Shown here piece by piece: positions 28,568-64,000 of a DNA stretch of 64,000 bases. Under the pieces are notes generated by a model, which worked only from the letters and a program-made list of their open reading frames with translations, was not told the origin of the DNA and made no database searches. This DNA comes from Loxodes magnus (Eukaryota > Ciliophora > Karyorelictea > Loxodida > Loxodidae), in contig CAMPDV010000518.1 in NCBI GenBank assembly GCA_946699065.1, forward strand, positions 1-64,000, written 5' to 3'. Position 1 is the first letter of the stretch, and every line of letters starts with the position of its first letter. The translations under genes and the position numbers were made by a program.

Positions 28568-29569
28568 ATGATTGGATGATATGAAATATTTTCATTAGAT
28601 TTTTTATTTTATTAATTTTAGAATTAAAAGAAGAATTTAATTTTTAAATCACTCATTTTAACTGATTTTCCATCTTCTCTATCTCTTGCTACTTATCTTC
28701 TATATTGTTTGGAATGAAATTAAAATTTGAAGATTATATTTTTGGCAACTACTGTACATCAGTATTATTAAAGTTTGAAAGTTAATTTTCTTAAAAAGGT
28801 GGTTATTATTAGTTTTCCTATTAAGTTGGTTAATTAAAATCAAAAGTTTAAGGAAGATTGTTTTTTGAATAGATATCCTGCTGATTAACTTATGAAGAGT
28901 TTTAAAGCTTGTCTTATTACTCTACTTATTACATATAGAAGTTTTATTATTACTTAAAACTTAGATTTGGTTCGTTATTTTGATTCAAATCTAACTAATT
29001 ATCTGGATTTTAAGTAGGTTAAAAAGAGAATAACTAATTTGGCTTATAATTTAATTAGTTTCATTTAGGAATTTAAGTCTTTTGACCTAAATAATGATTT
29101 TGATTTTCTTCTTACTATTGATTTTAGCAGGGAAAGTTTTGCTCCAAATGGTAACTTTATGGAATTTATTATTAATAAGGTTATTATTGTAAATTAAAGC
29201 CAAAATTGTTATTCAGTTGATTTTACTAAATATTTTAGTTTGTGTTTTCATTTTGATAGTAGAAACTGACTTGCTAAAACTATTATTGCTGTTGGTTTAT
29301 TTGTGGATTATAAATTTGATATTTTTCATTTTATTAATTCTGAAATTTTTAAGTATTTTAAGAGTCTTAAAACTCTTATTATTACTATTTATTATATTCT
29401 TTATACCAATCTTAATTGCTTATGTAAGAATCTTCTTAGAATTTAAAATTTTGCTTATCATTTTAGAAATTATAGAATTGCTGAAATGGCTAATTGTTCT
29501 ATTAATATTTCCACTATATTTAAAACTCTTATTATTTTCCGTTAGTTTAATCGCTATAGCTACGTATGA
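28568..29569 (+). CDS. Hypothetical protein, 333 aa
   Basis: ATG at 28568 opens a frame that runs to UGA at 29567-29569 under the ciliate code, with UGA at three internal sites (GW, LEWNQ, RNWLA). The frame has a regular purine-first, T/A-third codon pattern (gat, gct, aat, aag), which the other two frames lack. The product is rich in Phe, Ile, Leu, Asn and Asp (for example NNDFDFLLTIDFS, SEIFKYFKSLKTLII), with leucine-spaced segments that could be degenerate leucine-rich repeats. No clear transmembrane topology was seen. A hydrophobic ORF at 29217-29591 in another frame is its shadow. I do not recognise the family. The gene converges on the kinase-like gene, with 148 bp between the stops. 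Confidence 0.55.
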
Positions 29570-29717
29570 AAATAATGGCTTTTTATACTAATTCTTCTAT
29601 AGGAATATTAAGACTTTCTAAATTTTATTCTTTAAGCTATTTTTAAATCTTCTAAAAAATTATATCTTTTAAGTTATTTTTGTTTTTAATATTTAATTAT
29701 TATCTATCTAATGGCAT

Positions 29718-30869
29718 TCAGAAGCCACAACTATTTTTCACTTAATCTACCTTTACTAAAAGTTCTTTGATTACAGAATCTTTTATATGTAATGAGTATG
29801 AATCTCTAATTTTATTCAACAGCCAAAAAGCTGATAGATAATAAGCATATTTTAACTACAAGTTTTCATTATCTTTAATTTATTCTGCCAACATTAATAT
29901 ACTGGAAGCATTTTCTATTTCTTGCTCTATTTTTACTTATAACACCTTTATAATGTTCTAATCCATATTACTTTAAGATTCCTAGTTTTATTCTTTTTAT
30001 ACTATATGCTCTTAAGGAGCTAAAGTAATTTATTATGTTTAGCTTCTTAGTCATGGATGATTATAAAACTCATCGAAGTTAATTCTAAAGGCTGGTTCTG
30101 GAGTAAGAAGTTTTTTTATTAAGTCTTTACATAAATCAGAACATTAAAGCTTCTCTAAATTTGGTCCTAAGATTTATTCAATCATCAACTGATTTTAAAT
30201 TTTAGATTTGAAAGGCTTTTCTCCAGCTATCATTTCATATAAAATTACTCCAGTACTTCATAAATCCACTTTGTAGTCATATGTATCAGATCCTACTAGA
30301 ATCTCATGTGCAATATAAGGTTTAGTATTATATTTAGTTTTACCCAATCCTTCATCTTCTATACATTTAGAAAGACTAAAATCACAAATTTTTAGGATGG
30401 GACTTTGCGAAAAATCACTCAGTAACAGATGACTAGGTTTTAAATTTCTATGTAATATATTATTATCATAGAGAACTTTTAGTCCTTCTGCTAATTGATA
30501 CATAAAATAAAGAGCTTCATTCTCAGTAATTTAATTATTTCTTTTTTCTAAGTATTATTAAAGAGTTCCCCCTGCAGCATATTCCATAACTAAATAACTG
30601 TTATTTGAAGTTTAAAAAATATCTTTAATTTCTATAATATTTCTGTGATTTACATTTATCCAAATATTTATTTCTCTTCTTCTCGAAATATCCAAAAATT
30701 GGGCTCCTGGATAATTTTGATTTCTAAAGGTTTTAATTGCAAATCAATCTCCACGAGTTATATCTAAATTTTTTGATAATCACACACTTCCAAACGACCC
30801 TTCTGCTATCTATCGAATAAGAAGATATTCTCTAACTTTTTTAACTTTAATTTTTTAATCCTAAGCCAT
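29718..30869 (-). CDS. ULK/Atg1-like serine/threonine kinase homologue, probable pseudokinase
   Basis: A 383-aa product reads from ATG at 30869 to UGA at 29720. Residues about 15-290 form a protein kinase fold: Gly loop AEGSFGSV (22-29), AIK lysine K46, helix-C glutamate E66, hinge MEYAAGG, and VDLWSTG (201-207) with UGA coding the invariant Trp. Key catalytic positions are changed. HRD is HRN (140-142), so the catalytic base is lost. The loop Asn is His (KPSH, 144-147), DFG is DFS (163-165) and APE is AHE (187-189). Lys46, Glu66 and Asp163 remain, so ATP binding may persist without phosphotransfer. After the kinase domain come about 90 residues of predicted helix (EQEIENASSILMLAEQIKD), reminiscent of the MIT-like tail of Atg1/ULK. 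That link is an inference from layout and gross similarity. In-frame UGA is Trp at SVW, GDW, DLW and HPW. Confidence 0.88.
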
Positions 30870-32928
30870 TAGTTTTATAAGAAGCAATGAAAATAGGTTT
30901 AAAACAGACAAATAGGAATTGATAGAATAAAAGTAAATGTAAATCTAAATAATTGGGTGACAATGATTTGATAATAATTAGTTAGTTATATTTAAACTTG
31001 ATGGTACTTTGATTAGTACTTATTAGATAAATTCTTATAAAATAAGAAACCTTCTATTCATTCTATACCTATAAGTTAGTTTCTGCTAATTTATCTTTAC
31101 ATTTATATAACTATTTTCAGTGTTATTTTATAATATTAAAGTGATAAAGTTTCTATAATGAATGTAATAGACATTGTTAGATTTACTTAGTTAATCTAAG
31201 TATCAACTATATAAGCAAACTAATAATTTAATAGTCTATTATATTTTAGATAAACTAACTATGTTTATTTTAAATGTAGTAACTAATAATCTAATTAACA
31301 AGAACTATATCATTATCACTATCAATATTATAAATCCATATATCTAAGTTACTTCTAGTACCTTTTATTATACTACCTAAAGAAAACCTAAGACTAATTG
31401 CTAGCCATTTAGTATTAAACCTATACACTTCCTTATCTCTTATTATTTCTATTTTAGTATGCTTTCTAATTACTTTATCCATATTATCTAAACCTATTAT
31501 TAACTTAAGATAAGCTACTAGAGATATTATCTAAACACTTAACATACTAGACAACATAAAGATTAAGAGTTTCTATTATAATAATAAAGCTTTCTATAAT
31601 AATAGATGGAAGCATAAATATAACAGTAATAAAGCATAATAAACTACTAGAACGCTCACAATCAAATATTAAGCTATATATAGCTAATACTTATTTGCTT
31701 TTAATTTAAAATTAAATAGTTATATCTTAATAAATCACTTCTAACCACACTATGCGCAAGTACTTCCTCATTAATATTTTACATACTTGAACATTAGTAA
31801 TAATCACAGAGTAGAGAAATAATTAATTATCTTAACTATTTTTGCTATTTAATTAGTAGCTTTCAAGTATTATGCTTTTGAATCTGTGAGCTATATTGTA
31901 AGGCCTATTCTTAGTATTTATATAGTACCTAATTATTAGATTGATTATATAATAAGCAAATAGATTCTTATTAAACTAACTAACTAAATGGTTTGATCTA
32001 AGCATTGTTTATAAAATTCTAACTTTGATTACTTAATTTTTAGTAGTAATGCATTCTAGAACCTTATACTAATAAGTAAAATCTTAATGTTCTTGATTTT
32101 AAAGAATTAAAAGTATAGTAGTTGCAATAATTACCTTTGCTTATATATTCTAAGTATTAACCTATAATGGCTTGTATAATAAAGCCTTTATTTTACTTAA
32201 GCTGGATTAGAAAATCAGTAAGTAATACTTTAGTTAGAATTGCTTAAGCCACTTACTAACTCAATTAATAATACTCTATTTATAAAAAAGATAATAGACT
32301 ACTAATCTGATTTAGAGTGTAATCTCAATTACATGTTTAATATACTCTTAGCTATAAAATAATAATTTCCAATCATAGCAAAGAAGTAAATAGTATGATA
32401 AAACTATGCAGGCTTAGTAAAATTGATTAAAGTTAATAGCCCAATAAAATAATAAAATAGTCATTAAATGAAAAGAATCTAATACTTTTAGATATAATTA
32501 AAAAGGAAAAATCTAACTATAAATATAGCATAGTTCTAGGTATAATCATAGACTAATTCATAAGACTCTATACTTTTCCTAAAGTAACTAAATAGTGCAT
32601 TCCTATTATATCATAAAGCTATAAATGTTAAACTAACCACTTTGTTAATTATTTTCTATCTATAGATGAAAAGGATGATTATAGTTAGTAGAGATTAGTT
32701 AAATACATGATAGAAACAATTAGATGACTTAGTACTTAATACTAGTATTAATTATATAAGATTAGATATTTTACTGCATTTCGCTTCTTATTTATCTTAT
32801 TATTTCAATTGAGATCATTAGTTTCATTTTTTAATATCATTTTATTACTCTTATATGGTTGAAGAATTAAGCATAGTATGATATTTTTTAATGCTTATAT
32901 TAAATAGCTAGTGTATAAATCAGGATAA
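30870..32928. other. Two-kb intergenic region between divergent genes
   Basis: This very AT-rich stretch lies between the divergently transcribed kinase-like and calcium-channel genes, so it should hold both promoters. No box or operator can be recognised. It contains one weak ORF, entered separately. Confidence 0.45.
31291..31482 (-). other. Weak protein-like ORF, possible decayed gene fragment
   Basis: MDKVIRKHTK begins at 31482. The following 60 codons have a purine-first pattern and ordinary composition (YRFNTKWLAISLRFSLG, NIDSDNDIVLVN). The frame can extend upstream without a UGA. There is no recognised domain and no clear UGA end close by. It may be a fragment of a transposon ORF or chance. 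Confidence 0.22.
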
Positions 32929-35900
32929 ATGGAATAAGAGAGTTTTAATTTTTTGGTTCATAATAAAAAATTAAAATTTGCTGAAAAGTCTTTGTTTGTA
33001 TTTAGCACCTAAAGCAGGTTTAGACTTGCTGTTGTTTGAATTTAAGAATCGAAAGTTTTTGAAATATCAGTGCTGATAATAATTCTTGCCAATTCTTTTA
33101 TTTTTGCTTGCTCAGATTATACTTTTAGAGAAAATGGAAAGCGAAGCTGAAGAAATGAACTCGCTGCTAATACTGAAATGCTTTTTCTTTTATTGTTCAG
33201 TATTGAAAGCTTAATAAAGATAATAGGGATGGGGTTTATCCTTGAGAAAAATACTTATTTAAGAGATGGATGAAATTGACTTGACTTCTTCGTTGTTATA
33301 ACAGGGATTATCGGATCCATTCCTAATGTTCCTAATTTATCTGCTTTAAGAACTTTGAGAGTTTTGAGGCCTTTAAGATCAATTTCAGCATTGCCAAGTA
33401 TTCGTCTTTAAGTTAAATCTTTAATGAACTCTTTGCAAGCTCTAGCCAATGTTGTCATCTTTTTATTCTTTATCTTCCTTTTATTTGGTATCTTTGGCTT
33501 GCACTTTTTTTAAGGGTTAACTTACTAAAGATGTAGAATGTCCAACGTTCCTAAAAAAGATTGACCGGCTGATCCAAAAATAGATCGTCTTTGTGCATAA
33601 AACTCAGGATAATATAGATGTCCAGAAAGTAGATACTGCAAGTTACCAGGTGATTTGAATATATTCTGGGATAGTTTCACAAAAGAAGCAGAAATAGAGA
33701 ACCTTAACTATAATATCCCTAATTTCGATAACATATTAAGAGCCATTTTTACAATCTTCTAATGCATTACACTAGAAGGATGAGTATAGATAATGTATAA
33801 TTATATGGATGCTGAGTTTCCTTTACTTTCTGTACTTTTTTTTATTCTTGTTATATTATTTGGAGGCTTCTTCATTGTTAACTTAGTTTTTGCAGTTATC
33901 TGAAACACTTTTTCACAAACCTTGAAATCTGATATTAAGGAGCAATCTAAAAAGATATTTTAGCTATAGTAAGCTCAAGTCAATTAATCCGTTATCTAAT
34001 CCTCACAGCCAGTTAACAGACGTAACTCTATCCCTATTTAAAGAAGAATGATAAGAAAAGTTGGGTTGACATATGATGCGGATAGTAAAAAAGCTCATTC
34101 CGATTTTGTGGCGAAATACTAAGAAGATCATAGTGACTCTCAAAGTTCAGAGCAGAATGAACCAGAAGAAAAAAGTTTGCTACTAAGTTAATAAATACTC
34201 ACTTAAGTTAAGCTAAAAAGCTAACTTAAGAAGTTAAGAAGATATGCTAAAAAGATTATAAATAGCTAGTATTTTTAGCACTTTATCACTTTATCCATTA
34301 TAAGCAATACTATATTTCTGTCATTGGAGAAATATCCAAATAACGAGAAGTTAGAGAATATTTTAAATGAAACCAATCTTATTTATATAGTTATTTTTAC
34401 TGTTGAAATGATTATCAAAATAATAGGCCTTGGTATTAAGAAGTATGCATAAGATAGGTTCAATCTATTTGATGCTTTCATAGTTCTCGTTTCATTTGTT
34501 GAACTTATTCTTACGGAAGTTTATTCTGGTGCTAGCTAAATTAGTTCTGGAGGTGCATTGTCAGCTTTTCGTGTTTTCAGGCTACTTAGAATTTTTAAGT
34601 TGGCAAGAAGCTGAACTTCTTTTAAAAACCTTTTGAAAACAATTGGAAGGACAATTTAAGACATGAGCAGCTTTAGTGTCCTGCTTCTTATAATAATTTT
34701 CGTTTTCACTCTTGTTTCAATGGAACTGTTTGCCTATAAAATCTAATTTGATGAAGAAGGAAATCTAGATTTAGAGCATGGGAAGTCTCCTAGAAATAGC
34801 TTTGATACATTCTTTAAAGCCTTCACTAATATTTTCATCATACTAACAGGAGAAAACTGAAACTTGATATTCTACAACACAGTTAGAGCTACCAATTGAT
34901 TCTCAGTCATATTCTTTATTTTTGTGATAGTGATTGGTAATTATATCATGCTTAACTTGTTTTTAGCTATACTGCTGTCAAACTTCACATCAGTTGAAGA
35001 CTATTTTGATTATATTAAAAAAAAGAAAAAAAGATAATAGGTTTCTTTGAAAATTAAGTAGGGAGTTAAAAATGTTTTTCGTCGTATGTTGACTAGAAAT
35101 AATTCAAATCTGACTACTAAAGTATATAATCACTATAATTAAGAATAAAGCAGAAGAAAGTCAGCTTTATAGAAGTAAGAATCTAATGCTACTCTGGAGA
35201 ATAATGATAATGAAGCTATGAAAAACGGATTATAAAGCAGCCCTTAATAAAATACAACGAATTAAGAGCAAAAAATAGTAATAAAAGTAAAGCCTTCTAA
35301 TAGTAGACTCAATACGGCAAGTTCTTAACCAGAATCTTTCGAAAAAAATAAGGAGCAAATTTATGGAAAATCCTTGTGTCTGTTTTCTACAGAGAATAAA
35401 TTTAGGATTTTGCTGTATAGAATAATTAAAAGTAAGTACTTTGAATTCATTATTTTGATAACTATCTTGTTTTCTACTATAACTCAATCAATAGATAATC
35501 CCCTTTTAGATCCGAATAGTAAAGAAGCCAAACTATTATGATACTCTGATTTAGCTACTACTTCCATTTTTACTTTAGAAATGGTTTTAAAAATGATAGC
35601 CCTAGGATTTTGAAGTAATTAAGAATCAGCATATATTCGAAATAACTGGAACAAACTAGACTTTACTATAGTTTTGCTTTCCTTGCTAGACCTTGCCTTA
35701 GAGAATTATCAGTTTGCATTTGTTAAAGTTTTAAGAACTTTCAGAGTTCTTAGACCTTTAAGAGTCCTTAGTAAAAATGAAGGACTGAAGTTGGTCACTA
35801 AGTCTTTGCTTAGAGCTATACCTTCAGTAGTTAATGTGACTATAATTTGTAGTATTTTTTTCCTTTTGTTTGGAATTTTTGGTGTAAACTATTTTAAAGG

Positions 35901-37947
35901 AGCATTTTACTAATGCTTAGATGTTTAAATTGATGGAATATACTTAATTACTAAGTAGGACTGTATGGATGTGGGAGGTGTGTGAGAAAACAGAATACTA
36001 AACTTTGACAATGTTCTAAACGCAATGGTTATTATGTTTTCAATATCAACAACAGAGGGATGAGTTACTGTTATGCATTAAGGAATTGACTCTGTTGGCA
36101 TAGATAAAGTTCCCCATATTTATCATAGAGAATAATGAAGCTTGTTTTTTATCGCTTTTGTGATAGTTGGAAACTTCTTTTTACTGAATCTTTTTGTTGG
36201 TGTGGTAATCGACGTCTTTAATAAAGAAGAGGGCATAACAAGTGAAAGTGCTTTTTTGACTCCTTAGTAATAGTAGTGAGTTACAGTAAAAGCTATGATG
36301 CTTAAATTTTATCCTAAGAAATTGATATAAAAGCCTAGTAACAAAGTGAGGAAGTTTCTATATGAAATATCTAGGAGTTAGAAGTTCGAATACTTAATGC
36401 TCATTTTCATAATTCTTAATACATGTGTACTTGCATTATAATGATATGGAATGGATGAAGATTTAAGGCAAGCTTTTGATACATTAAACATTGTGTTTCT
36501 TATCATTTTCATGATTGAAGCTGCTATTAAAATACTAGGATGAGGCTAAGTTTACTTCAAAGATAACTGAAACAAATTTGATTTTTTCATAATCTGCGGA
36601 TCTATAGTTGGAATGATTTTATCAAGCTTAGTCAAAGGAGTAAAATTAGCTGCTATAAGCACTATTGTTCGAAGTTTCAGAGTTGGGAGAGTTTTGAAAT
36701 TAGTCAAAACTGCGAAAAGCTTAAGAACGATTTTTAATACACTACTTCTAACTATTCCTGAACTAGCAAACGTTGGAGCATTAAGTCTTTTATTCCTATT
36801 CATTTATTCAGTTTTAGGAATTTAACTATTTTCGAAGATAAAGGAAAATGGATCTTTAGACTCTCATGCTAATTTTCAAAGCTTAGCCAATGCTTTTCTT
36901 ACGTTATTAAGATGTGCCACTGGAGAAGGTTGGAACGAATTAATGATAGCCTGTTCTCTTTAAAACAGCTACTTCACAAGATGTATTGATAACCCAAGTT
37001 GAGAAGATGTAAAGGATAAGCCAACAGGGTGTGGAAGCTAAATCAATTCTTACCTATTTTTCATTTCATTTGCCATTATTTTTACTTTCGTTTTCCTAAA
37101 CCTTTTTATAGCTGTTGTCTTGAAAGGTTTTGTTGAAGCTAGTAACAAAGAGGATCTAAAAATAACTGAAAATTAATTTGAGCATTTCAGAGACTGTTGA
37201 AGCACTGTAGATTAGGAAGCAATTGGCCATATTGATATCGAAAAACTGGAGGTCTTTCTTACAAAACTAGGAGAACCTTTAGGATTTTCCAACTTCCTGA
37301 CTAAAAAGTAGAAAGAAAAATTCATGCTTGAACTTGACTTACAGATAAGAGAAGAAAAGCTATACTATTTAGAAGTAGCACAAGCAGTATCTAGGAGATA
37401 TTTAGCTAAATGCTATAAGAAAGATCCTTTAGAAATGTGGAAGTAATTAGAAAAAGAAGCTGTTATTTTCAGAAGGCTAAATAAGAAAATAATAAAGATG
37501 TACCCTGAGCTAAAATAGAACACTGATACATAAATAAAAATGACTACTGCAACCTTGATAGCTGTTAAGAAAATTTAGAAAAAATTTAAAGACAGAATCA
37601 AAAAGAAGAATGAGCAATCTTAAATAAACCTATCCAAAAAGAGACGAATTTTTGTCTCTCCTTCTACTATTTCTTGAAAATAATAATAAAATAAAGAAAA
37701 AACTGGAAGCAAAGAAATACTCAAAAAAAATGATACTTAAGAAATGGAAGGTACAACTGAAATGAAATTTTAAACCACTTGGATGGATAATGATCCTGAA
37801 ACTGATTAACTTAATGTAAACAGTTAGATAATTTATGGTACTACAAAAGATATAACCAACTTTAGCGCAAGTCATAGTAGAATAATAGATGAAAAGGATT
37901 CGATGAGAATAGTTGATGCAGAATAGTTAAATTAAATTTAACTCTGA
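32929..37947 (+). CDS. Four-domain voltage-gated calcium channel alpha-1 subunit
   Basis: One uninterrupted 1672-aa frame runs from ATG at 32929 to UGA at 37945-37947. It has four repeats of six membrane segments. The arginine-rich S4 helices include LRTLRVLRPLRS (about residue 138), FRVFRLLRIFKLARS (about 546), LRTFRVLRPLRVL (about 933) and VRSFRVGRVLKLVK (about 1244). The pore loops give an EEEE selectivity filter: TLEGW (E283), TGENW (E642), TEGW (E1043) and TGEGW (E1333). EEEE is the CaV pattern; NaV has DEKA. The C-terminus has an EF-hand-like stretch (EAIGHIDIEKLEVFL, about 1430) and a basic Lys-rich tail. The length is near the usual CaV length. About 22 Trp codons are UGA and about five are UGG. 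It probably carries calcium-driven ciliary or contractile responses in the cell membrane, as known for ciliate CaV channels. UGA at 37675 is read as Trp because clear coding sequence follows it. Confidence 0.96.
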
Positions 37948-38396
37948 ACTTTTTTCACTTCAATATTATTTTACTTATTTGCATTTTGCTACTCTTTTAA
38001 CTTTTAGTTTTTGAAATTTTTTTCAATAGCTGGTATAACATAAGCTTTGACTATATTTTTATATATAGACTATCTAGCATCCATTATAGAATAATGATCA
38101 CTATCTTAATAACAAAAGACTTTCAATTGCTTAGATACCTTTTATAAATATAGTGGTTTTATAATTTACACTTACTTAGTATTTCGAACATCTTCACCTT
38201 TATTTCTTTCTATTTTATCACCTCACTATTAAAAAAGGCTAAGCTTAAGCAATATTATAAGATATTCAAAGGAAAGGTAGTTATAGGTTAAAAAAAGATG
38301 TAAGGAATTGAGAAATGAGGATGATAGACTTTTCTTTATTATAAGATTATTAAATATAAGATTATTATAGCAGTCTTTAATACTTATTTCATTCAT
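37872..38396 (-). CDS. Hypothetical protein, 174 aa, overlapping the channel 3' end
   Basis: ATG at 38396 opens a frame to UGA at 37874. The second half has good codon pattern and composition (for example DSDHYSIMDARQSIYKN and AYVIPAIEKNFKNQ). The first half is weaker, and one internal UGA would be Trp. The last 25 codons lie antisense to the end of the channel gene, a 76-bp overlap. The real end, or a tiny intron, may therefore differ from what is given. The plus strand here also reads as a hydrophobic frame that continues past the channel stop, which is probably its mirror image. No family was recognised. Confidence 0.4.
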
Positions 38397-39393: not shown

Positions 39394-41094
39394 TCAAATC
39401 TTTTTGCTTCTTACATAAAAGGAAAATTCAGAAAAGGAGTTTATTTCTGACTTTATTTCTAGGTACCTTTCACTGAGAACATATGCTATTTAAGAAGATA
39501 TATAAAGTCCAAGGCCGAAACCCTCAAAGACATTCAAATTACTTTTGCCTCTGTATATAAAAGATTACTTGAACATGTTAACATCTAATCCTTTGCCAGT
39601 GTCATATACTTAAAACTTGTATAAGTCATACCTTTCTTGTTCTTCCACTGAGATATAATTATTAGACTTTTTAACCTTAATCTCAATTTTTCCTACTTCA
39701 GTGTATTTTATTGAGTTAAGCAACATATTTTATAGTACGTATAAAATCTTAGTTTGATCCGAAAATATGTGTACAGGAACCGAAGGCTGAATATTAGAAA
39801 TCAGTCCTATTCCCTTTTCATCAGCTTGAGACATAATTATTTATTAAGCCTTTCTCAGTAGTCCCTTAACTTCAAAAATGCTCCATTTAATCTAAGCTGC
39901 ATTGGTATGTATTTAGACTATTTCATGTAGCTATCCTACTACATTCATCAAAGATTTTGCCCTTTTATTAATTTACTTCAGGGATTCTGCGAAATTTTAG
40001 ATATCAAGTTTATTTTCAGTCTCTCCATTTTGCTCCTTCTAAAGTTTTTCAAGAGCTACCAGAGAATCATGACTTGCATTTTTTATTTAAGTAACAGGTT
40101 CACAAACTTAATTGTTCAGTGATTTTAAAAAAAGCGTTTTGTACTTATCCTCCTGCTTAAGATTTTCAACCTTGGCGATTTCTTTTTATATTTAAGTTAT
40201 ATCCAGAATATTTAAAAGAACAGCTTCCTAGCCTTATCAGAAGGTATTAAGAGCTTCAATTTCCAGTATCTGATAGTTATCTTAAGCTCCATAGATTTAG
40301 AAGTTTTTAATAAAAACTTGGCTAAACTTTTTAGGAACGGATTCCTTACCAAGAATATACTTCTCTAAGTCAAGGGAAAATTTGGTAGTCAGGCTTTTAT
40401 TGTAATACTGAGCATCTTTCAAAATTTAGAGAATGCTTCTATTCTAGAAGAACTCATAAACTGAGGCATTTTCCCACATCACCTTACAGTCTTTATTCAT
40501 AATTAGAATAGCAGCTCTAGTAGTAGAGGATATGAATCTGAACTGTATTAAATCTTGCTAGATTTGCTTCTGATTGAGGTATAAAGTTTCTTGCTCTAAA
40601 TGAAATATTACAATACTTGCTCCATTAATAAAGACCAAAAATAAAATTCCAATTTGGAAGTTAAAACTCATATTAAGCAAGCCTGATTGATAGCATTTGG
40701 TTATTCCTATCAATACGGATATAATATAAGTAGGCAGTTATATTTTTCAGTTCCTTACTATCAAATTTCCTAATGTTGCATTTCAAATTATTACCAATAA
40801 CCCTAATCATTATAAATCTGGAAACAGGAACAGTAGCAAGAAACTTTCAAAGGTGCAATAGAACATAGTTAAGTAGAAAGCAGCTTTTAAATAAAATTTA
40901 TTTTAAAGGTCCTCAAATGAAGCGAAGAAAACCCAGAGGACAAAGCGCGAAAAGATGGTAATTCAGCTGATCATATTAGTATCGTTCTGATAAGCAACGC
41001 AAAAAGAGATAACATGCAAGGGAAGGGTAACTAATTTCAAGTAAAAAGCTGAAATAGAAGAATTTTAGAACTTAAAATTCTTAACTGAATCCAT
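39394..41094 (-). CDS. Membrane-bound sensor histidine kinase with a PAS-like domain
   Basis: A 566-aa product reads from ATG at 41094 to UGA at 39396, with no intron. The first 190 residues are hydrophobic, with about six membrane spans (such as TIFSRFVLWVFFASF and QIGILFLVFING). A PAS-like section follows (FISSTTRAAILIMNKDCKVMW, about 215-320). The dimerisation helix carries the phospho-acceptor in KNASHDSLVALEKL (H342). The ATPase domain has the N box LLNSIKYTEVGK (N460), the G1 box VYDTGKGL (D498) and the G2 box GFGLGLYIS (about 523). No receiver domain follows, so any response regulator or phosphorelay partner is encoded elsewhere. Such multi-pass membrane histidine kinases are common in ciliates. 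The stimulus is unknown. The last coding UGA (TFWQG) is 281 codons before the stop. Confidence 0.93.
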
Positions 41095-43281: not shown

Positions 43282-44217
43282 TCATTCGCTTTTTGAATTT
43301 TTGTATGAAGACTGTGTAGGAGGAAAAGAATTTGTTTCCTATATCACATTTTCTTCCTCTTATTTACTCTCTTCATTTCCAAGACCTGTGTAAGCTAGAA
43401 ATTTATTTAGTCCTTGTTTTCCCCTTTCGACACCCGTTCATAATGCCTAAGATGATTTTTCCTTAATATTTTGTATATTAGGATCTTGCTGAATTTTAAA
43501 ACTTACTACAAGCCCCTTTGTCTTTTCAAAGGCACTACCTGCCAAATTTTTGGACTTTTCGAGTGCTACACTACTCATTTCTTTTGTTTTATTCAAAGCT
43601 TATGATGCACCATATTAAATCTTCTAGCCTAAATCACCCGAAGTAGCAGTGTCTTTTACAACTTGGTATGTTTATTTAGTTTTACTCCAACCATATGATA
43701 ATCACGAACCCAATGAGTTATCTTGTTCTTGCTATTATGGTAAAGGTTCTGAAGCAAAGCTTTTTTATTGCGAATACATTTATTGAGAAGCTGGAGGTCC
43801 TTATTCAAAGTTTTTGGCGCCTTCTTCAGGAGTGGGTTTCTTTTAATTAAATGGAGTTTCTTCAACTTAGCTTTTAATCGTATCCCTATATCATTTTGCT
43901 GCAATCGTTTAATATTTGGCAGGAAGTGGCTATTCAGGAATATTGTAAGTCTAAAGGAACTCTCTAAATAGACGATTTCCTCCATTACTCATATACTTAA
44001 GTTATTTAACACTTCAGCTGTCCATAGTAACGCTTCGGACAAATGAAATATGCACTCCTAAACCTCTATGAAAGCCAGAACATTCAAGGCATAAAAAGAT
44101 TCCATGTGAGACAGACGCCCATTATGTTCCTTTTTTTCGGCAATCAAAACATAATTAGTTTTCTGAATCTTATAGTAGTTATCTGAAAACCTCTTGCGCG
44201 GTTGCTTAAGAAACCAT
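43282..44217 (-). CDS. ArfGAP1/Gcs1-type Arf GTPase-activating protein
   Basis: A 311-aa product reads from ATG at 44217 to UGA at 43284. The N-terminal ArfGAP zinc finger is complete: C23-x2-C26 (CFDC), QWAS (32-35), C43-x2-C46 (CLEC), then [15 protein letters not shown] with the arginine finger at R51, VTMDSW and [27 protein letters not shown] closes the domain near residue 120. The tail is Gln/Ser-rich, then repeats amphipathic segments ([24 protein letters not shown]) like the curvature-sensing region of ArfGAP1. The family stimulates GTP hydrolysis on Arf1 at the Golgi and COPI vesicles. UGA codes Trp at AKWYR, DSW, GSW and ALWTG. The last of these is 52 codons from the stop, the closest coding UGA to a stop in the window. 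The length is somewhat shorter than animal ArfGAP1. Confidence 0.93.
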
Positions 44218-44893: not shown

Positions 44894-46332
44894 ATGGAAA
44901 ACAATGAAAATAACAGAGAATTATTTAAGAAACTTCTTTAAATCCCTCCTGCTAGTAGGACTACATAATAAGTGCAAGAAATCGGGCAGAAGTTGAGCAG
45001 TTTTTTTACGAAGTTAAATTTATCAGAAAATTAGATTTAGCAGTTAGGTAGATATGTCACTGTCAGGGAATATTTTCCAAAAGATGTTGTATTTGAGGAA
45101 GGTGATGTTGGTGATGCTTACTATATGATTCATTCAGGATCAGTAGAAGTAGTGAGAAGAGAAAAAAATGATTATGTTACTAAAAAACCCACTAGAATTG
45201 CAATTCTTGAACAAGGTAATGGCTTTGGTGAAGTTGCTTTGCTCTACGGAACACGTAGGATAGCGTCTATCATAGCTTTAGAAAATTCATGACTAATAGT
45301 GCTATAAAAAGAAATATACGATCAGCTAGTTAAAGGAGAATGCTCACAACGAGTACAGAAAATTTTTAAAGCAATAGATAAATATCCAATCTTTAGAGAC
45401 AAGACAGATCCAATTATAATAGACTTAGCTTATAACTCTGAAATAAAGTTTTATTTTTTAGATGCTGTTGTAGCAAAATAGAATGAAGAATCCAATAAAA
45501 CATTTTTTGTTATCAAAGGAAGAGTGAAATTAATGAGGAGAATTGAATTCGTGGTTGAAGCAAAAGGAGATAACAGATATATAGATCCGTAACCGGGAGA
45601 AGCTTCTTAATTCTAATTTATCAAAGTGGGAGTCATAAGTAAGCATTAATATAGGTGATGGAGGTATATATGGACTGGATGAATTTTTCGCGAAAATGAG
45701 AAGGTATAAAGTTTATTTAGTTGCTGAACTTCCAACTGAGATCTTAATAACCAAAAACGAAGACTTAGAAAGACTTGATCAAGTAATTTTTTATATAGGA
45801 AAAACTGAGATTACTTGATAAATATTGCATGTATGTTCCTAAAGACAATGAAATAAGATAAAAGCATATTGAATAAAATGAATGGGGGTAGTATAAATAA
45901 GACTTGGTTAGCTCTATTTTTAGCGAGAGAGTTAATCGAAAAATTGCAAGAGATTACTCAAGAGATTTTTACTAAGTTCCAACAAAAAACGTACTAAAGC
46001 CAATTTATAAGCACAATGAATTAAAAATTTCAGATTGAAGTAAATATTGTAATGTCAAGCCAAGGCTGCTTGAATAAAAAAATAGATCCATTAATAAAAC
46101 TTTTGATGGAGGATTAATTAAGAAAGGTAAAACTTAGAGAGAATTCAATTCTAAATCTTTTCTCAATGAGAGTGTCAAATAATTTAAGAGCTTGAAAGAG
46201 AGTAGTTACAAGAAGAGAGGGGTAACTGAAAGAAAAATTTTGCTTTAATAATACAAAAATTAAAATTTTAAATCTTAATGTTTACTTTACTCTCAGCATT
46301 TTTATAATATCTTAGTCTCTTTTATTTTATGA
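44894..46332 (+). CDS. Protein with two cyclic-nucleotide-binding domains (PKA-R/PKG-like sensor)
   Basis: Exons 44894-45638, 45655-45782 and 45799-46332 join to 468 aa, ending at UGA 46330. The first CNB domain (about residues 45-165) has VFEEGDVGDAYYMIHSGSV and a near-canonical phosphate-binding cassette GFGEVALLYGTRRIAS (about 110-125), with the Glu and Arg that hold cAMP or cGMP. A second, divergent CNB domain (about 170-295) has KTFFVIKGRVKLM and a weak cassette YGLDEFFAKMRRYK. There is no dimerisation/docking domain or inhibitor site before the first CNB, so it is not a plain PKA regulatory subunit. The last 170 residues are basic and unrecognised. Two 16-nt introns in the second CNB domain restore the frame. 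The gene converges on eS1, 179 bp away. Confidence 0.88.
45639..45654 (+). other. 16-nt intron 1 of the CNB-domain gene
   Basis: GTAAGCATTAATATAG. Removing it joins KVGVIS to DGGIYGLDEFF and keeps the second CNB domain in frame; leaving it in shifts the frame. Confidence 0.88.
45783..45798 (+). other. 16-nt intron 2 of the CNB-domain gene
   Basis: GTAATTTTTTATATAG. Removing it joins DLERLDQ to EKLRLLDKY in frame; reading through gives a quick UGA after GKTEIT. Confidence 0.85.
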
Positions 46333-46511: not shown

Positions 46512-47297
46512 TCACTATGTCGAGGTTTTGATTTCTTTTGTCAAAGTGTTTTCAGTTTCTTTAGTCTCATTTTGCTTCTGAACAGGTTCTTTAGTATCCA
46601 TATGAATTTCCATAAGCTTGCTGATATCGAATTTAGGCTTCTTCAATACTTTTACTTTGCGAATTGCAACATCCTTAAGAGGAAAGATTGTGGCGGTTTG
46701 CTTAATAACTGCTTTTCCAATTTCTTCAGTGATAAATTTGGAAACAAGTGTCTTCAAATCATTCTAACTAGCTTCCTTAGTCATGATTTCCATCATCTTT
46801 TTCCTAATGAGTTTTATTTACGAAGTTTAAGCATAGCATGTTTTCTTAATCTAGTTCTCTCTCTTCTTGGTGAAGCCAGCGCAGAAAATACGTAGTAAAT
46901 ACCCATCTTAAGTTTTAACTTCAACATGAGCCTCAATCATTGTTTGCCATTTCCTAACAAGCCAACCCTAATGATCACGAGTCATATCCATTCCATGGAA
47001 GTTAGTAAGGCATTCTTTTCCCTATGTTTCTTCAATGCAAAGCTTCATTTTACGGAAGGCAAGATCATTATTTTCCTGAAGATCTGCCAAGGAAACAGTA
47101 GCAACACGACCTTTAAGCATCTCAGTTGCAATCTTAGTACCTGTAGTTTTTGTGACTATTGTTTTTCCGAAGCGACGCTTAGAGAAAACGGCGGGAGCCT
47201 TAAGGTCAAACCACTCCTTACGAAGATATGGGTCTGCTACCTTCTTTTTTCCTCCCTTCTTGCCTTTAGAAATTCTCTTGTTTTTCCCCACAGCCAT
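46512..47297 (-). CDS. RPS3A: 40S ribosomal protein eS1 (RPS3A)
   Basis: A 261-aa product reads from ATG at 47297 to UGA at 46514, close to the 264 aa of human RPS3A. Conserved blocks in order are [103 protein letters not shown] and [20 protein letters not shown]. It is a small-subunit protein near the mRNA exit. Internal UAA/UAG at conserved positions prove Gln coding (for example VKTQDGY and CYAQ). A UAG immediately precedes the UGA stop and is read as Gln. All three Trp codons are UGG, unlike the neighbouring genes. No intron. Confidence 0.98.
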
Positions 47298-50064: not shown

Positions 50065-51057
50065 ATGTAGATAACTGATGAAAACATAGAACAATAAGAT
50101 TTCTAACTTTTTCCCTTCGACTTTAACTTTGAAAACTAAGAGTAGTATTAAATTCCTGACACTGATTTGATGCTTCTATTTTCATAGTAAAGTTAGAGTT
50201 TAAGTAAAATAGAGGATAATCGATAATAGAAACCCAGCTCAAACCAAAGTGCTAATAACTAGGAATTATAGGAAAATGCAAATGATCTAAGCTCTTTAGA
50301 GAAGGCTAGTAAGTAAAATGCAACTGGGAAAGTAAAAGTAGTTATGATTTAATTTCCTATTTTAGAGCCTGGAAAATATACATTCCAAAGCGATAACTTA
50401 TAAGTTACTATTGAGCAAGAAGAATTTATAGATACGTAACAAAAATCAAATAATTGAACTTTATAAAAGGAATACTTTGACTTTAATAATTTGCTTAACT
50501 TTCCCTAGGAAAAAGAGAGAAGATATTAAAACGAAGATAGAAATTAGCAAGAAGTCGAGCTCCAAAACCATAGCATGCTAAGTAATGAAAATGCTAAAAG
50601 TGAGAATTTTAATTTATGCTAGTAACAACTTTTCGCTAATTAATGTAACGAGTAAGAAAAAGAAAATAAGTGATGAATTAATTATGAAATGGTCTTTCAA
50701 AATTTTAATTAGAAATCTGGATGTAGATGCTATAAAACTAAGTGTATAAGAATGTACTGTCAATGCTTTAGTGATTTCAAACTCTGTGACAAAAAATGCA
50801 TTTGTCAGAACTGCCAAAATAATGATAAACACATAGAGGTAGTTAAATAAAGCAGAAAATAGTTTTTAAAGTAAGATGTTCAGGCATTCGATAGGAAGAA
50901 AAATTTAATTTTCCATCAAAAAAATATAAAAGGATGTGTTTGTCGCAAATTCCCATGTAATAAGAAGTATTGCGCTTGCTTTTCAGCCTAAGTTTACTGC
51001 ACACCAACTTGCTAGTGTTCAGAGTGTGAAAATGTAAAATCAAATAAGAATGATTGA
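50065..51057 (+). CDS. LIN54/tesmin/TSO1-like CXC-domain DNA-binding protein
   Basis: A 330-aa frame reads from ATG at 50065 to UGA at 51055. The N-terminal 200 residues are Gln/Asn/Glu-rich and disordered-looking. The first CXC repeat starts at residue 220: GCRCYKTKCIRMYCQCFS, then C-x3-C-x-C-x2-C (CDKKCICQNC). The second starts at 291: GCVCRKFPCNKKYCACFS, then CTPTCQCSEC. The 30-residue linker carries HQKNIKG before the second repeat, as in the CRC family, where each repeat binds zinc and inserts a Tyr into the minor groove of CHR (TTYGAA) sites. Family members control cell-cycle or development genes, in animals within the DREAM complex. The stop is placed at the first UGA after the domain. 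The next in-frame UGA is about 155 codons on, beyond sequence that looks non-coding, so the 3' end is the least certain part. Confidence 0.88.
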
Positions 51058-57346: not shown

Positions 57347-57944
57347 TCAAGTTAATTAAGTGCTTAAGAACTAGATTATTAATATCTTTAATAAGAAGTT
57401 TAGTGAATTAACTTAAGTAGAATATCTGTTTATTTCTTACTTCATTACTATAAAATTAAAAGGTCTTCTTTGCTTTAGAAAGTATAATATCAATTAGATT
57501 TCTTGCTTATTTAGCTTAACAAAAATGCTAGACATCGCTTTAGAAACTAAAAATTTAATCTATGAAGAGATTCAAAGATAAGACAGTTCTTCCTTTAGCT
57601 AACTTTATACTTTAATAATCGAGCATCATTGTAGTTTACTGGGGTTTAAATACTCAGTTGTAGTCTCACTAACAGGTATATCATTTGTGATGTTTCAGCT
57701 GATAAAAAACTTGTAAAGCCTAATTTTAAGCTTTTTAAAAAGAAATAATAAGGATATTCCTTACTTGCTTTATTCCTCCTAAGTCTTTTTTTTTCATTTA
57801 TACTGGCATCAACTGAACATTTCTAACCAGTGTCTTAGCATTTGCCAGATCATATAAATTTTCCTAGTCTAATCATTTCTTAATCCCTCAACTATTTCTA
57901 TTGGCTGATTGTTCAATTCTAAAGAAACTACTTGAAACTCTCAT
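57347..57944 (-). CDS. Hypothetical protein, 187 aa, with a probable 34-nt intron
   Basis: Exon 57765-57944 (60 codons from ATG at 57944, starting MRVSSSFFRIEQSANRN) and exon 57347-57730 (to UGA at 57349) join in frame when a GT-AG intron at 57731-57764 is removed. Both exons have a purine-first codon pattern; the second includes VSETTTEYLNPSKLQW and FLVSKAMSSIFVKLNKQ. Six UGA codons would be Trp. No family was recognised. It is transcribed away from the TFIIIC gene with 114 bp between the start codons, so the two may share a control region. Without transcript data the intron is a guess. Confidence 0.42.
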
Positions 57945-58058
57945 TTACTGTATTACTATACAAGTTTCTTCAATACTATAACTTAGTTGCAATAGCGAGT
58001 TAGAATCAATAGAAGATTAGCTTTATATATAGGTATCAATTATAAGTTATTAGATTAA
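57945..58058. promoter_or_regulatory. Short divergent intergenic region upstream of the TFIIIC gene
   Basis: It is 114 bp between two divergent start codons. It is AT-rich and contains TATATATAGG at 58025-58033, which could be TATA-like but could equally be chance in such DNA. Confidence 0.3.
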
Positions 58059-60211
58059 ATGGCTGAGATTGAATTTTCTAGTGGAGATGAAGGAACTCCT
58101 AAAAGAAAAAATGGATCTGGAGGCTAAGGACCTAAAGAGGCTTAATATTTAATCGGAAAGGCAAATTAATATTATGTGTTTTAATAGTTTGATGAGGCTG
58201 AATAGACACTCTAATAAGTTATTACCAAATATCCTCAACTGCCAGATTCTTATCATGTTGCTGGGTTAATTTAAGGTAAGCTACTATATAGAGGAGAAAG
58301 GAAACTTAAAAAAAGCTATAGATTTCTATACAATGGCAGCTTAACTAACTGGTAATGATAAAGATTTATGAATTAGGGTAGCAAATATGTAAAAAGACAC
58401 TAACGAGGATTTCAAATCAGCTGCTTATTGCTTTTAAAAAGCTTATAGACTAGTAAAGCAAAATCCAGAAGAAGCTATTGATATTCTCTTCCAAAAGTAC
58501 TTTTTTATTTTAGAGCTGAGTGCTTTGAAAGATTATAGAACTGGCCGAAAGCTATTAAGTGCTATACATAGATTTTATAGATATCTCCATAGTATCAAAA
58601 TGCTATCAGACAACTAAGCAAAATATACTATGATCAGAGAAATTACAAAAGCGCTATAAGGTTACTAGAGTAAGGTTTAAGCCCTAATCCTGATCTTAAC
58701 ACACTTCACCTTCTTTGCGAACTTTACATTATTCAGGATAATTATGAGAAATGTGATGAAATACTTTCAAGAATAATTAACATTAAAAACATAACTCAGT
58801 TTCCAACTGATTTGATTAACAAGTATGCTCTTGTTAAATTTAAAAGGGGCGATATAAACGAAGCAAAAATAGCCTTTGAGCTAGTTTTACAAAGCGATGT
58901 GCAAATTTTTGCTGAACTAATCTATAATGCAGGGTTGCTTTATCTAAATGAGCTTAATGATTATGAGTATGCACTGAAATTCTTCTAAAGGTTGGAAAAT
59001 CTTCCTGATTACTCTGAAAGCTCTAAGTTTAATTATGAGTTTGGTTCAGTATATAAAGAGCTAAAGTAAAATTAAGAAGCAATAGTTAAATTACAAAAAG
59101 CTATTTAACTAGGAGACAAAACAGATTCTAAAGTTCTACTTGCTAGGATATATGGAGAATAAGGAGATTAGCCTACATAAATTTAGATCTTGAGGTAAAT
59201 TTCTTAAAATGGTAATCTATTCGAAAAAATTTGTTTAAAAGTGGAGGAAACTAAAGTCTGGTATAAAAAGTAAGAATTCCATAACTGCATACAAATATTG
59301 ACTCCTTTAATCAAAAGTTTTAACCATGAATTATTCGATCAAAACTTATTAAATGATGAGACAATTCAGTAACAAGTAGCAAATTCATTTTTGATCTTAG
59401 TTAAGTCTTATTTCAAGCTAAATTAGTTAGACATAGCCCTCTAGTGACTAGAAGCATTGAAAAGTTTGTAACTTAATAGCATTTAAACAGATAATTAAAT
59501 AAGGATAAAAAAGATAGACTTTAAAATAAATGTGGAGATGAAATAGTATGATAAGGCCTTTTTGAGTATCAAATGACTTTGCTAGAGTGACAAAAATAAT
59601 ATCCAGCACTTTATAAAATTAAACAAGCTACTTAAGCAAAACTTTGATCAAAGTAGTGTTAAGTTATGAATGTCTAAGATTCTGGCAAACTACTAGAATA
59701 AATAGGAAATTAAGCTAGTTATAGGAGTCATACATGGAAACATTTCATTCAGCAGTGGGTTTTATAGTAGCGCTATAAGATAATATTTTGAAAGCTTTAA
59801 ACTCCAGCCTGAAGAAAGCTTGCATTCTTTGTAAGTTTATAATTCAGAAATCTAGCGATATCTTACTTATTTTCACTGATATATAAAACTTAGCTGAAAA
59901 GTTTAGTTCTTTTTCAGGAAAATATGAACAGAGCTTGCTATTTCATATAGCTTTATTTCTAAATTAGAAGCCCTCAAGGTGCAATTTAGTTTATGGAAGC
60001 TTGCTACAACTACGGCAGATTTTGCTAGCAACTAAATTTAAACCTCTAAGCTGTTGACCACTATCAATAAGCTATTTCTTTTTACAACGAATACGAGAGT
60101 AAGCAAGATATCTCTCAAATAATAAAACTAGTTGCTTACAACCTTAGTCGAATTTATAAAGCAATAGATAGAGTAAGTGATGCCAAGTATGTCTTACTTA
60201 AATATCTTTGA
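58059..60211 (+). CDS. TFIIIC subunit tau131 (GTF3C3/Tfc4) homologue, TPR protein
   Basis: Four exons (58059-58275, 58292-58496, 58514-59830, 59848-60211) join to 700 aa, ending at UGA 60209. An acidic/basic leader (MAEIEFSSGDEGTPKRKNG) precedes tandem tetratricopeptide repeats. These include FDEAEQTLQQVITKYPQLPD, GNLKKAIDFYTMAAQLTGND with DLWIRVANM, NWPKAIKCYTQILQISPQ and NYKSAIRLLEQGLSPNPD. The family's C-terminal block is clear: HGNISFSSGFYSSAIRQYF, then ESLHSLNLAISYLF and GAIQFMEACYNYGRFC. In yeast and animals this subunit bridges TFIIIC on the B box to TFIIIB at tRNA and 5S genes. The protein is shorter than the roughly 890-1025 aa of animal and yeast forms, mostly at the N-terminus. Three introns of 16, 17 and 17 nt are needed to keep the TPRs in frame. 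Confidence 0.85.
58276..58291 (+). other. 16-nt intron 1 of the TFIIIC gene
   Basis: GTAAGCTACTATATAG. Removing it joins HVAGLIQ to EEKGNLKKAIDFY, restoring a TPR helix pair. Confidence 0.9.
58497..58513 (+). other. 17-nt intron 2 of the TFIIIC gene
   Basis: GTACTTTTTTATTTTAG. Removing it joins DILFQK to AECFERLQNWPKAIKCY. The donor is GTAC rather than GTAA. Confidence 0.88.
59831..59847 (+). other. 17-nt intron 3 of the TFIIIC gene
   Basis: GTAAGTTTATAATTCAG. Removing it joins EESLHSL to NLAISYLFSLIYKT, the conserved C-terminal block of the family. Confidence 0.9.
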
Positions 60212-62229
60212 AGTGGAAAATGTTCATAAAATATCATCTTTAATTAACTATTTTCTTTCAAACCTAAGATTGCAAAACTTCATCTATATTACTATTTAAA
60301 ATTCTGAAAAATAACCCTTTATTTCTTTATAGTCTAAATTCATTATTATAGTTGACTTATTATTAGGCAAATCTATTAAAAGTAATTGCTTTAAAAAAGA
60401 GAAACCTTAAAGTGAAAAACGATCCTATTTATATTTATTGGCGTAAATGTATGCAGTATTATTAAAATCTATATCCTTCTAATTTTTCATAGCCAAAACA
60501 ATATTTTTAATGAATTATTACTATCAAATTAAATTTAAACTTCCTAGCCTTAAATCTTTATTGTCTTATAAATAGCAGTTACTTAATTTCTACCTTAATA
60601 GATAGATTTTTGCTACTAATAATTTATTTAAACTCTTCATTTATTTCACTCTAAGCACATTATAAATATATAAACTGACTTAATTTATTATCAATAGCTG
60701 ACTATAGTCCAAATATGAATTAATATATCCCACTTTTCTAATTAGTAAGTCTAATTTGTTTTAATATCAGACATCACTATAACTTCTCTTTTCTTATCAA
60801 TATAAAATCTTGCACTTAAGTATTAACCAAAATAGCTTCTTAAAATTAACTTGCTTAGTCCAAAGTAAGATAAATAGCTTTCTTTATTAAGCCACTTTTA
60901 TTAGGGTATTCCTTCCATTGACTTAAGTAAAAGTTAACTAATATATAAAAACAAAGTAATTAGGAAAGCTTCCTATTTAAACTAAGAGCATAAGAATAAT
61001 ACCTTTTAACTGTAAATTATTCTAATAAATCCAATATTTTCAATTCTTTTAGCTAGTTCTTAAGATCATTTCTTTAAACTAACTACTATCTTTAGTGAGA
61101 ACTAATTTATTGCAGTATATATGCTTAAATATTAGTTGACAAGCGAATTAGTTATGTCTCTTTAGTTTTATCACCCTTGTTGTGTTTAATTGACGCTTTA
61201 TAACTATTTTCTACGTTTTTAGACCTTAAACTCTTTTTAAATTTTAGCCCCGGATGATATATTTAAACCACTAGTCTTCTTAATAACCTTCAATTATCTA
61301 CTCTAATACCTCAGAAATCCAGAGATTAATAGTCTAAGTAATTACAAAAGATTCATTTTTCATTTGATTTGATAATTCCCATACCTAATTCTATTTCCTT
61401 TGCAACGTCTAATAAAACTTTAGATATCATTGAAACAACTTACTTGAAAGGTAAATAATTCCACTTTAATATTAAGCAAACTAAAGCTTATAAAGTTAAA
61501 TAGCCAAATAATATGTGAAATATAAAGAAAGAGCTAAGGTTAGTATAGTTAGCTTAAAGGTACTTTAACATCTTAGTAACTATAATCAGTTTTATTAAAT
61601 CCACAGTCATTTCAAATTTCTTAGCCTTTTTAAACAATTACTGAATTACTGCGTTCAAAAAGGAAATACTATCAGGTTAAATAAATAAAGAAAGGATATA
61701 GAAAGCTACGCTATTTATCAGTATAAATTATTGCTATAGCATCATAGATTCTAATTAGTCTATCTAGTTTAGAAAACTTATTACTGAACATAAAAGTTCA
61801 TTTTTTATCAATCTGCTATTACTAAAGAAGTCTAAACCTTCTCTATTATATACTATTGCTTTACCCAAAAATAATACCTAAACTTGACTAATTCCAATCC
61901 CTATAAATTGTATATCTAGCATAAAATTTAAATTTAAGCGGCTTTATTAAAGCAACTTTAGTTTTTTATAGGATAAAGATAACTGGAGTGTTACTGAAAG
62001 AAATAACTAAAGTTAAGTGATATTTATAAAATACAATACTTGCTCTATAACTATAAATGCTTATAAAAAGTAATATTAACTATATGGCTTATGATTCAGT
62101 ATTGTTCATAGAGAAACTTGCTAGTAAATTACCATAAATTGACTAATAATGGAATTTTAAGAGATAAGTCATGAGTTATTTATTAACTAGAGCTTTCAAT
62201 CATTTTTTTTATTAAATAGCACGTAGTAC
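60212..62229. other. Two-kb AT-rich gap, no gene seen
   Basis: I found no motif, RNA gene or ORF with a supporting codon pattern on either strand. Confidence 0.42.
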
Positions 62230-62505
62230 CTCAATGGTGCGCATCACTGTTTAAAATGCCAATTATTAAAGTCTCTCTGTAACTAATTGTTCATATGAAG
62301 TCCTTCATCTAATAGCGAACTTGGTTGCATTTCTTTATATCCCCAAAGCTCAGGACGCCTTCAAGCGATCACATGTCCACTTTCCAACCTATAGTAAAGT
62401 GAATAGTTCGGTCCAATATTTAGATTCTTAAGTCCTCAGTCAAATTCCTCATTGGGAGTTTCTTCTTGGTCCCCTCTTAAGTCAAGGTGCAGCCTATTCA
62501 AATTA
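62230..62505 (-). other. GC-richer island: short open frame or unknown RNA gene
   Basis: The island stands out from the surrounding AT-rich DNA. On the minus strand one frame reads about 85 codons with UGA as Trp (LDLRGDQEETPNEEFDW, GHVIAWRRPELWGYKEM, LLDEGLHMNNQLQRDFNNW), ending at a UGA near 62250. There is no nearby ATG; an upstream AG could be an acceptor. It also holds an ATGAAG/CTTCAT inverted repeat (near 62294-62309) and a GGAC/GTCC pair. I do not recognise the protein or an RNA family, and either reading is possible. Confidence 0.35.
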
Positions 62506-63145
62506 TATATAACAATTATAAAAATTAGCAGCTTACTACTGTATTAGCAAACTAAGGAAATAGTAGAGCATTTAATGATAGAGTATTTAAAGATTAACCC
62601 TGATTGATAGCAAACTGTATTAGATCTATATTATAAAGGTAAATAAAGTTGTTCAAACTTAGTAATTCTAGGTAATTAGATTAACTATAAAAAGAGTTAG
62701 CACAGCTGGATCCATATTTTATAAGTAGCAAGATTATGAGAATAGTGAAGGATAATTATATTATAAGCTATGCTTAAACTAATTAAGAGCATGGTATTAA
62801 ACTAGTTGCTTTGCACATTTTCTTATCATAATTAAATACTATAGAGGAAGCTAATACTTCATGATACTTCCTGAGAAATTAGAAAAATGTATTTAAATAG
62901 CTTTTATAGTCGAAGCTATTTTAACGTAATTTTTTAAATAGAAGCTAAAGTTGAATTTCGTAGAAGTAATAAGAGGAATAAAGAGAGGGGATGAAATCTA
63001 TGAGTAGTAAATATAGTTAGCAGAGTGTATAAATAAGCAGGAAAAGTGAGATAGTTAGTAGAGTATATGATAGTAGGAGTAAGATACTTCAATTCATATT
63101 TTAAGTATAAAATTTCGATTTAAAAAATTTAAATAAAAGATCGAA
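62506..63145. other. AT-rich gap before the last gene
   Basis: Nothing was recognised. The right end should hold the promoter of the gene starting at 63146. Confidence 0.42.
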
Positions 63146-64000
63146 ATGTCTTTCACAAGTGATAGGACATTCACTAAAAATAACCATGTGATCGTATTTA
63201 CAGAAAACATTTCAGCTGAGTTCTATATGATATTTAAGGATAAAATTAGTAAAATTAAGCAAGAGGAGTAAAGCTAGAACTAAGTACAGCCTGATGCTAG
63301 TTTAAATAAAATCATAATTGAAGAATAAGGTTCTCCAAAACCTTAAGCCAAGTAAATAATTTATGGTAAAGTGAGTCCTGATTTTAGATTAAAGTTTGCA
63401 AGAAAAACTTCTAAGATAGTAGACATGGAATAGGTAGAAAACTAAGATTAAATGTGGAGTTCCCAGCAAGAAGTACGATTGAATATAGAAAAATAAGCGA
63501 CTTAGAAAAATGTAAGTGAACAGAATAAAACGTTCAGTCTTGAGAAGGTTTAAAAAGAAACATTGCAACCTAATACTTAATCTGAGAGGAATAACTTATA
63601 GACTAATTTATAAAAAGTAGAGCCTAAAAAAAACTTAAGCAAAATTAATAGTATGCTAAAGAAAAGCCTACAGTGAAACTAAAAGGATAGCTAAACTTAA
63701 TAATCCTAAGACTAATAGCAACCAAAATTACTTAACACCATTCAGAAAACTTCAGAATAAAAAAACTAACCTTAAATAGAAAAAGCAGCAGCTTTAAATA
63801 ATTATCAGGAGAAGAATATAGAAAAAGAGTTGGAAAACTTTAACTAAAGCTTATAAACTAAAATTGAAAGCAAATAAAGTGAAATTTAGCAGATCATTTA
63901 GTAGTAGCTTAACTATGAATTCCAGTCTAATGAAATAAAACAACAATAACCTTAGAAAGATCAGACTAACTAGTAGTAAGAAAAGGGCTTAGATAGCTTA
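63146..64000 (+). CDS. Gln-rich coiled-coil protein, 3' end outside the window
   Basis: ATG at 63146 opens a frame that has not ended at the window edge (285 codons). It starts MSFTSDRTFTKNNHVIVFTE. A conserved-looking start (EFYMIFKDKISKIKQEE, YGKVSPDFRLKFARKTSKIV) is followed by long Gln/Lys/Asn-rich segments, in which nearly all Gln codons are UAA or UAG, and then a predicted coiled coil (EKELENFNQSLQTKIESKQ). Only one in-frame UGA is present (LQWNQK). The family is unknown. A structural or cytoskeletal role would be a guess. Confidence 0.65.

Follow-up and report, generated by a model that had tools for sequence, protein, structure and literature searches.

Introduction

The ambiguous nuclear code of karyorelict ciliates, NCBI translation table 27, was described by Swart et al. 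2016 and Seah et al. 2022, and for Loxodes magnus by Seah et al. 2024. According to PMC11441545, karyorelicts including Loxodes use this table, in which UGA is the only stop codon and is read as Trp when it lies at a sufficient distance from the poly(A) tail. In Condylostoma, whose code is NCBI table 28, candidate UAG and UAA stops have been reported in transcripts (PMC4967479).

We analyzed a stretch of 64,000 nucleotides of L. magnus DNA, bases 1-64000 of contig C518 (CAMPDV010000518.1; hereafter the window), together with the genome to which it belongs (705,730,643 bases in 7843 contigs; the published L. magnus macronuclear assembly is 706 Mbp (megabase pairs), PMC11441545). The genes of this organism very probably follow the ambiguous karyorelict code, in which UAA and UAG specify Gln, UGA specifies Trp or serves as the main stop, and a small share of genes probably ends in UAA. 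This code has already been published for L. magnus and is not new. We also think it rather probable that the code falls between tables 27 and 28, with UGA as Trp or stop, UAA as Gln and rarely stop, and UAG as Gln only. Two codons would then be ambiguous and one would be fully reassigned, the decoding of UGA being backed by a tandem array of 34 or more genes for tRNA-Trp(CCA) with an anticodon stem of 4 base pairs (bp).

Codon meaning in gene families of the genome

The meaning of the three codons was read from the DNA alone by a comparative test on the Ras/Rab family, which used the Trp and Gln of the conserved WDTAGQE motif and the Cys-containing tails at the gene ends. Among the first 40 Ras-family matches in the genome (39 tallied by script and L136 by eye), the motif Gln was written TAA in 27, TAG in 8, CAA in 3, CAG in 1, and ATG in 1; that is, UAR (UAA or UAG) stood at this position in 35 genes, CAR (CAA or CAG) in 4, and another codon in 1. 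UAR was commoner than CAR in the tested families. In the eRF1 genes, the Gln of the catalytic GGQ motif is TAA, and several more conserved Gln residues are encoded by UAR.

The motif Trp of the same 40 Ras/Rab genes was TGG in 25, TGA in 12, TAT in 2, and TTA in 1. A second tally used the 30 top-ranking channel domains in the genome, in which stops were masked before alignment. Their pore Trp column held TGA 16 times, TGG 13 times, and TAT once, and TGA occurred in other conserved columns of these domains three times at Leu and once at Phe. The conserved Trp columns of eight genome kinases held 18 TGG, 1 TGA, and 1 TTT. At the tested positions of the Ras/Rab and channel genes, TGA thus made up a third to half of the Trp codons. 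No internal TGA was seen in eS1 and eRF1, in the actins, which are present in multiple copies, and in most of the HSP70 matches that are full length. Genes with high expression may avoid UGA.

Genes in the window

Pfam scans covered chosen strands and stretches of the window between 28.6 and 64 kb, in fewer than all six frames, and were used in place of codon-usage gene finding, which had little power. An Rfam scan of the window returned zero RNA families at gathering score. Eight genes were recognized.

29061..30839, minus strand: protein kinase exon; Pkinase domain at 30048-30821 (PF00069, E 1.5e-55); probable stop TGA at 29061-29063
32929..37947, plus strand: four-domain voltage-gated cation channel (Cav/Nav type); 1672-codon frame; probable stop TGA at 37945-37947; introns possible
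33052-33921, 34267-34998, and 35431-36228, plus strand: PF00520 matches of the channel
39394..39759, minus strand: HATPase_c (GHKL ATPase) gene; domain at 39409-39759 (PF02518, E 3e-10); in-frame TGA at 39394-39396
43282..44217, minus strand: ArfGAP gene (PF01412, E 3.2e-33); probable stop TGA at 43282-43284
45065..45334, plus strand: cyclic nucleotide-binding domain (PF00027, E 4.9e-19); frame changes, likely introns, no end placed
46512..47297, minus strand: ribosomal protein eS1 (PF01015, E 3.5e-70; PDB eS1, E 1.6e-96)
50929..51057, plus strand: Tesmin/TSO1 CXC domain (PF03638, E 1.4e-16); in-frame TGA at 51055-51057
58137..59112, plus strand: TPR repeats (PF07719 and related TPR families); no gene end placed

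A first-pass annotation of the window had assigned UGA to invariant Trp positions in the kinase DLWS motif, the channel filters, and the ArfGAP MDSW motif. This assignment was borne out: the Trp codon is TGA in the kinase (30258-30260, minus strand), in the ArfGAP (44014-44016, minus strand), and in three of the four channel filters (33781, 34858, and 36061, plus strand), the fourth filter having TGG (36931). In alignments with PDB relatives, for which every TAA, TAG, and TGA was masked as X, the DLX and HPX positions of the kinase and the EGX position of the third channel domain stood opposite W, in the case of the kinase among the matches shown. Of the five PDB matches shown for the ArfGAP, two had W opposite the MDSX position, one had F, and two had N with an inserted W next to it. 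Other TGA codons sit opposite variable residues.

A portion of the channel matched PDB Cav3.2 with E 5e-143, and its frame contains 22 TGA, 55 TAA, 19 TAG, and 5 TGG in 1672 codons. The openness of the frame is weak evidence for UGA, with 22 TGA observed vs about 30 expected (P 0.07). Under table 11 the frame falls into 97 pieces, the longest of 96 amino acids, and under table 6 into 23, in agreement with the earlier claim that automatic open reading frame calls are badly fragmented here. Annotation with a wrong translation table splits genes of this genome in this way.

The first-pass reading of UAA and UAG as Gln, eS1 included, was likewise sustained. Before its last codon, the eS1 gene has 3 TAA, 5 TAG, 0 TGA, and 3 TGG. 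Of the seven TAR codons (TAA or TAG) that align with the Toxoplasma and human proteins, four lie opposite Gln in each of them, and the other three face I/M, L/T, and K/T. The gene closes with TAG (46515-46517) followed by TGA (46512-46514). A plausible in-frame TGA end was found in six of the eight recognized genes (kinase, channel, HATPase, ArfGAP, eS1, and CXC), and the ends of the cyclic nucleotide-binding and TPR genes could not be placed; the statement that every recognized gene ends in UGA therefore holds for those six. Adjoining the gene region, positions 1-24000 of the window consist of a satellite of 13 near-identical head-to-tail units of about 1833 bp.

Gene ends and stop codon usage

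We followed 60 Ras-family genes from across the genome to their 3' ends. TGA ended 57 of them, TAA is the candidate end of 3, and TAG ended none. The TGA lay at, or within four codons of, a Cys motif (CC, CxC, or CAAX-like) in 46 of the 57. Both eRF1 genes also end in TGA. The candidate UAA ends are those of L146 (KCEKCLIF-TAA), L150 (SCNC-TAA), and L166 (KCCN-TAA), and the related gene L096 ends in CNC-TGA where L150 has SCNC-TAA.

The use of UAA and UAG also differs along these genes. The UAA:UAG ratio was 269:128 in the 60 domains and 47:25 at codons -21 to -40; over the final 20 codons, read in 56 tails of which some span short introns, it was 31:41 (Fisher P 9e-5). When similar tails were collapsed to 33, the last 20 codons gave 13:27 (P 1.8e-5). 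In L. magnus transcripts, UGA and UAA have been described as depleted near gene ends and UAG as not depleted (PMC11441545). The G + C content directly 3' of 56 Ras/Rab-family stops was 18.7%, beside 18.6% for L. magnus 3' untranslated regions in the same source. The last 20 codons of the tails contained no UGA among 1081 codons, but they contained only 2 TGG, so this zero is weakly informative.

Given the 3 candidate UAA ends among 60 and the depletion of UAA close to the ends of genes, UAA probably serves as a second, rare ambiguous stop in the genome, and UAG, which ended none of the 60 genes, appears to be a sense codon only. The 2022 abstract of Seah et al. is said to mention that a small minority of karyorelict transcripts may use UAA as a stop. 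That UAA and UAG fare differently toward the ends of genes suggests that the eRF1 of this organism still recognizes UAA but not UAG, a contrast through which the evolution of partial codon reassignment can be tested.

Of the other explanations, the one that survives best, though we regard it as unlikely, is that the three TAA ends arose by recent TGA-to-TAA mutation and are read through, or that they reflect overlooked introns or errors in the assembly. Only three cases are involved, and in L146 a TGA lies one base away in another frame. However, the Ras domain of 162 positions is kept nearly full length in all three (1-161 in L146, 1-160 in L150, and 1-155 in L166), and in AT-rich sequence the next in-frame TGA is distant (22 codons in L146 and 43 in L150) or absent from the 65 codons read in L166. 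In addition, depletion over the final 20 codons affects UAA and not UAG, as in the published transcripts (PMC11441545).

Much less probable is the Condylostoma code (table 28), under which all three codons are ambiguous and UAA and UAG are common as stops. Although the three TAA-ended genes and the depletion of UAA near gene ends would suit it, the predominance of TGA among the 60 ends and the lack of TAG show that UAA and UAG are not regular stops, and near the ends it is UAA that is depleted relative to UAG, not the other way around. We considered the UAG-UGA pairs at the ends of eS1, L083, L084, and L167 as possible UAG stops and rejected them, since the paralog L174 has an ordinary Gln codon at the L167 site. 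UAG occupied position -1 in 3 of 56 tails, close to its average of about 2 at each position. The first-pass preference for table 27 over the Condylostoma code is thus supported by these ends. Its further claim that UGA is the only stop stands for the six window genes with a placed end and probably does not extend to the whole genome: genes ending in UAA or UAG, which it had named as counterevidence, appeared among the 60 ends as the three UAA candidates, with none for UAG.

A Blepharisma-like code, with UGA as Trp only and genes ending in UAA or UAG, agrees with the UGA codons that clearly stand opposite Trp, yet we give it practically no credence, as the 57 TGA ends already refute it and 35 of the 40 Ras/Rab-family genes have UAR at the invariant Gln position. 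We hold it hardly credible, too, that the in-frame stops mark pseudogenes, or broken genes under a Tetrahymena-type code with UGA as stop only: tandem HSP70-like copies at G000:C854:136105-167565 match only piecewise, contain several in-frame TGA, and are probably decayed, whereas in several families TGA falls at the Trp columns of paralogs that are intact in other respects, and decay would not be so regular.

Several points weigh against the ambiguous karyorelict code as read here. The evidence throughout is DNA sequence, from which translation is deduced, and the paralogs in the family tallies are related and not independent samples. Numerous TAR and TGA codons face residues other than Gln and Trp in the PDB alignments, as do some UAR codons of eRF1 with respect to Gln, and in a small set of kinases and channels UAR stood in conserved columns at Glu, Lys, Asp, and others more often than at Gln. 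In 11 of the 57 TGA-ended genes there is no Cys motif, and the TGA is just the first in frame past the domain. The decoder of UAR was not located, an uncontrolled and hence uninformative search with a Tetrahymena tRNA-Gln(UUA) having given zero matches.

Probable decoding factors

Two eRF1 genes, L081 and L082, lie about 35 kb apart on contig C196 and are 96% identical. They share the motif RAQNIKS, vs TASNIKS in human eRF1, and carry Ala at the position of human Ser70 (L081 alignment). This residue is Ser67 of yeast eRF1 in the numbering of PMC12153298 and PMC12440015, and the S67A change occurs in ciliates that use UGA as a sense codon (PMC12440015). One or two further in-frame TGA codons follow within five codons past the stop of the eRF1 genes. 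Another gene, L080, was considered as eRF1 and rejected, being pelota-like when read by eye.

On contig C148 (G000:C148:155434-165068), at least 34 places have an equal tRNA-Trp match score and are mostly 241 bp apart; the count is a lower bound, 40 of 131 candidates having been scored. The two that were read, L193 and L194, are identical tRNA-Trp(CCA) genes with a U27.C43 mismatch atop the anticodon stem, which leaves a stem of 4 bp. The same U.C bases have been reported for tRNA-Trp of Amoebophrya and Condylostoma magnum, and Loxodes is listed among the carriers of 4-bp-stem tRNA-Trp (PMC13092985, PMC12005148). Three copies on contig C110 (L187, L188, and L190) are tRNA-Trp with a normal 5-bp anticodon stem, and the copy on C7736 (L189) has an additional mismatch and was not called by ARAGORN. 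Two more C110 matches were rejected as tRNA-Trp, being tRNA-Arg and tRNA-Met. No tRNA-Trp(UCA) was seen among the tRNA-Trp matches, in a search that was not exhaustive.

In a generic search with RF00005, tRNA-Lys repeats dominated the matches (63 of 42,786 candidates scored; 13 of 13 scanned loci held tRNA-Lys). A Trp anticodon-arm pattern matched at 11 places, and none of these 11 loci held a tRNA. One tRNA-Lys(TTT) is present genome-wide in many copies, in dispersed and tandem repeats and in some cases next to tRNA-Ala(TGC) (L009-L038).

Parts of the published mechanism are therefore present in this genome, namely Ala at the Ser67 site of eRF1 and the 4-bp-stem tRNA-Trp(CCA). We propose that UAA and UAG inside genes would be decoded as Gln and internal UGA as Trp, the latter presumably by the 4-bp-stem tRNA-Trp(CCA) in the presence of the Ala-bearing eRF1. 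Near the 3' end of the mRNA, UGA would terminate translation; in the published model, an adjacent poly(A)-bound protein helps eRF1 outcompete the tRNA (PMC4967479). The DNA itself shows which residues the codons match, where genes end, the eRF1 residue, and the tRNA stem, and from these we infer decoding by the two factors and a part for poly(A). UGA ends most genes, a few probably end in UAA, and UAG appears to act as a sense codon only.

Comparison with known systems

The closest system is the table 27 code of Parduczia, Loxodes, and others, which shares with the genes analyzed here UAA and UAG as Gln and UGA as Trp or stop. In both, UGA is the main stop, the 3' ends are short and rich in AT, and UAA is depleted before stops. 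A difference is that three candidate UAA-ended genes were found here, whereas PMC11441545 calls UGA the sole stop. The table 28 code of C. magnum has in common with this genome that all 64 codons are sense codons, that termination depends on context, and that tRNA-Trp(CCA) has a 4-bp stem (PMC4967479, PMC13092985, PMC12005148); in contrast to C. magnum, UAG ended none of 60 genes here and UAA is rare as an end. Blastocrithidia, in which UAR is Glu, UGA is Trp, and UAA also serves as a stop, likewise has a 4-bp-stem tRNA-Trp(CCA), and its eRF1 is altered at the same serine (PMC12153298). Unlike in Blastocrithidia, UAR is read here as Gln, UGA is the main stop, and eRF1 carries Ala where that of Blastocrithidia carries Gly.

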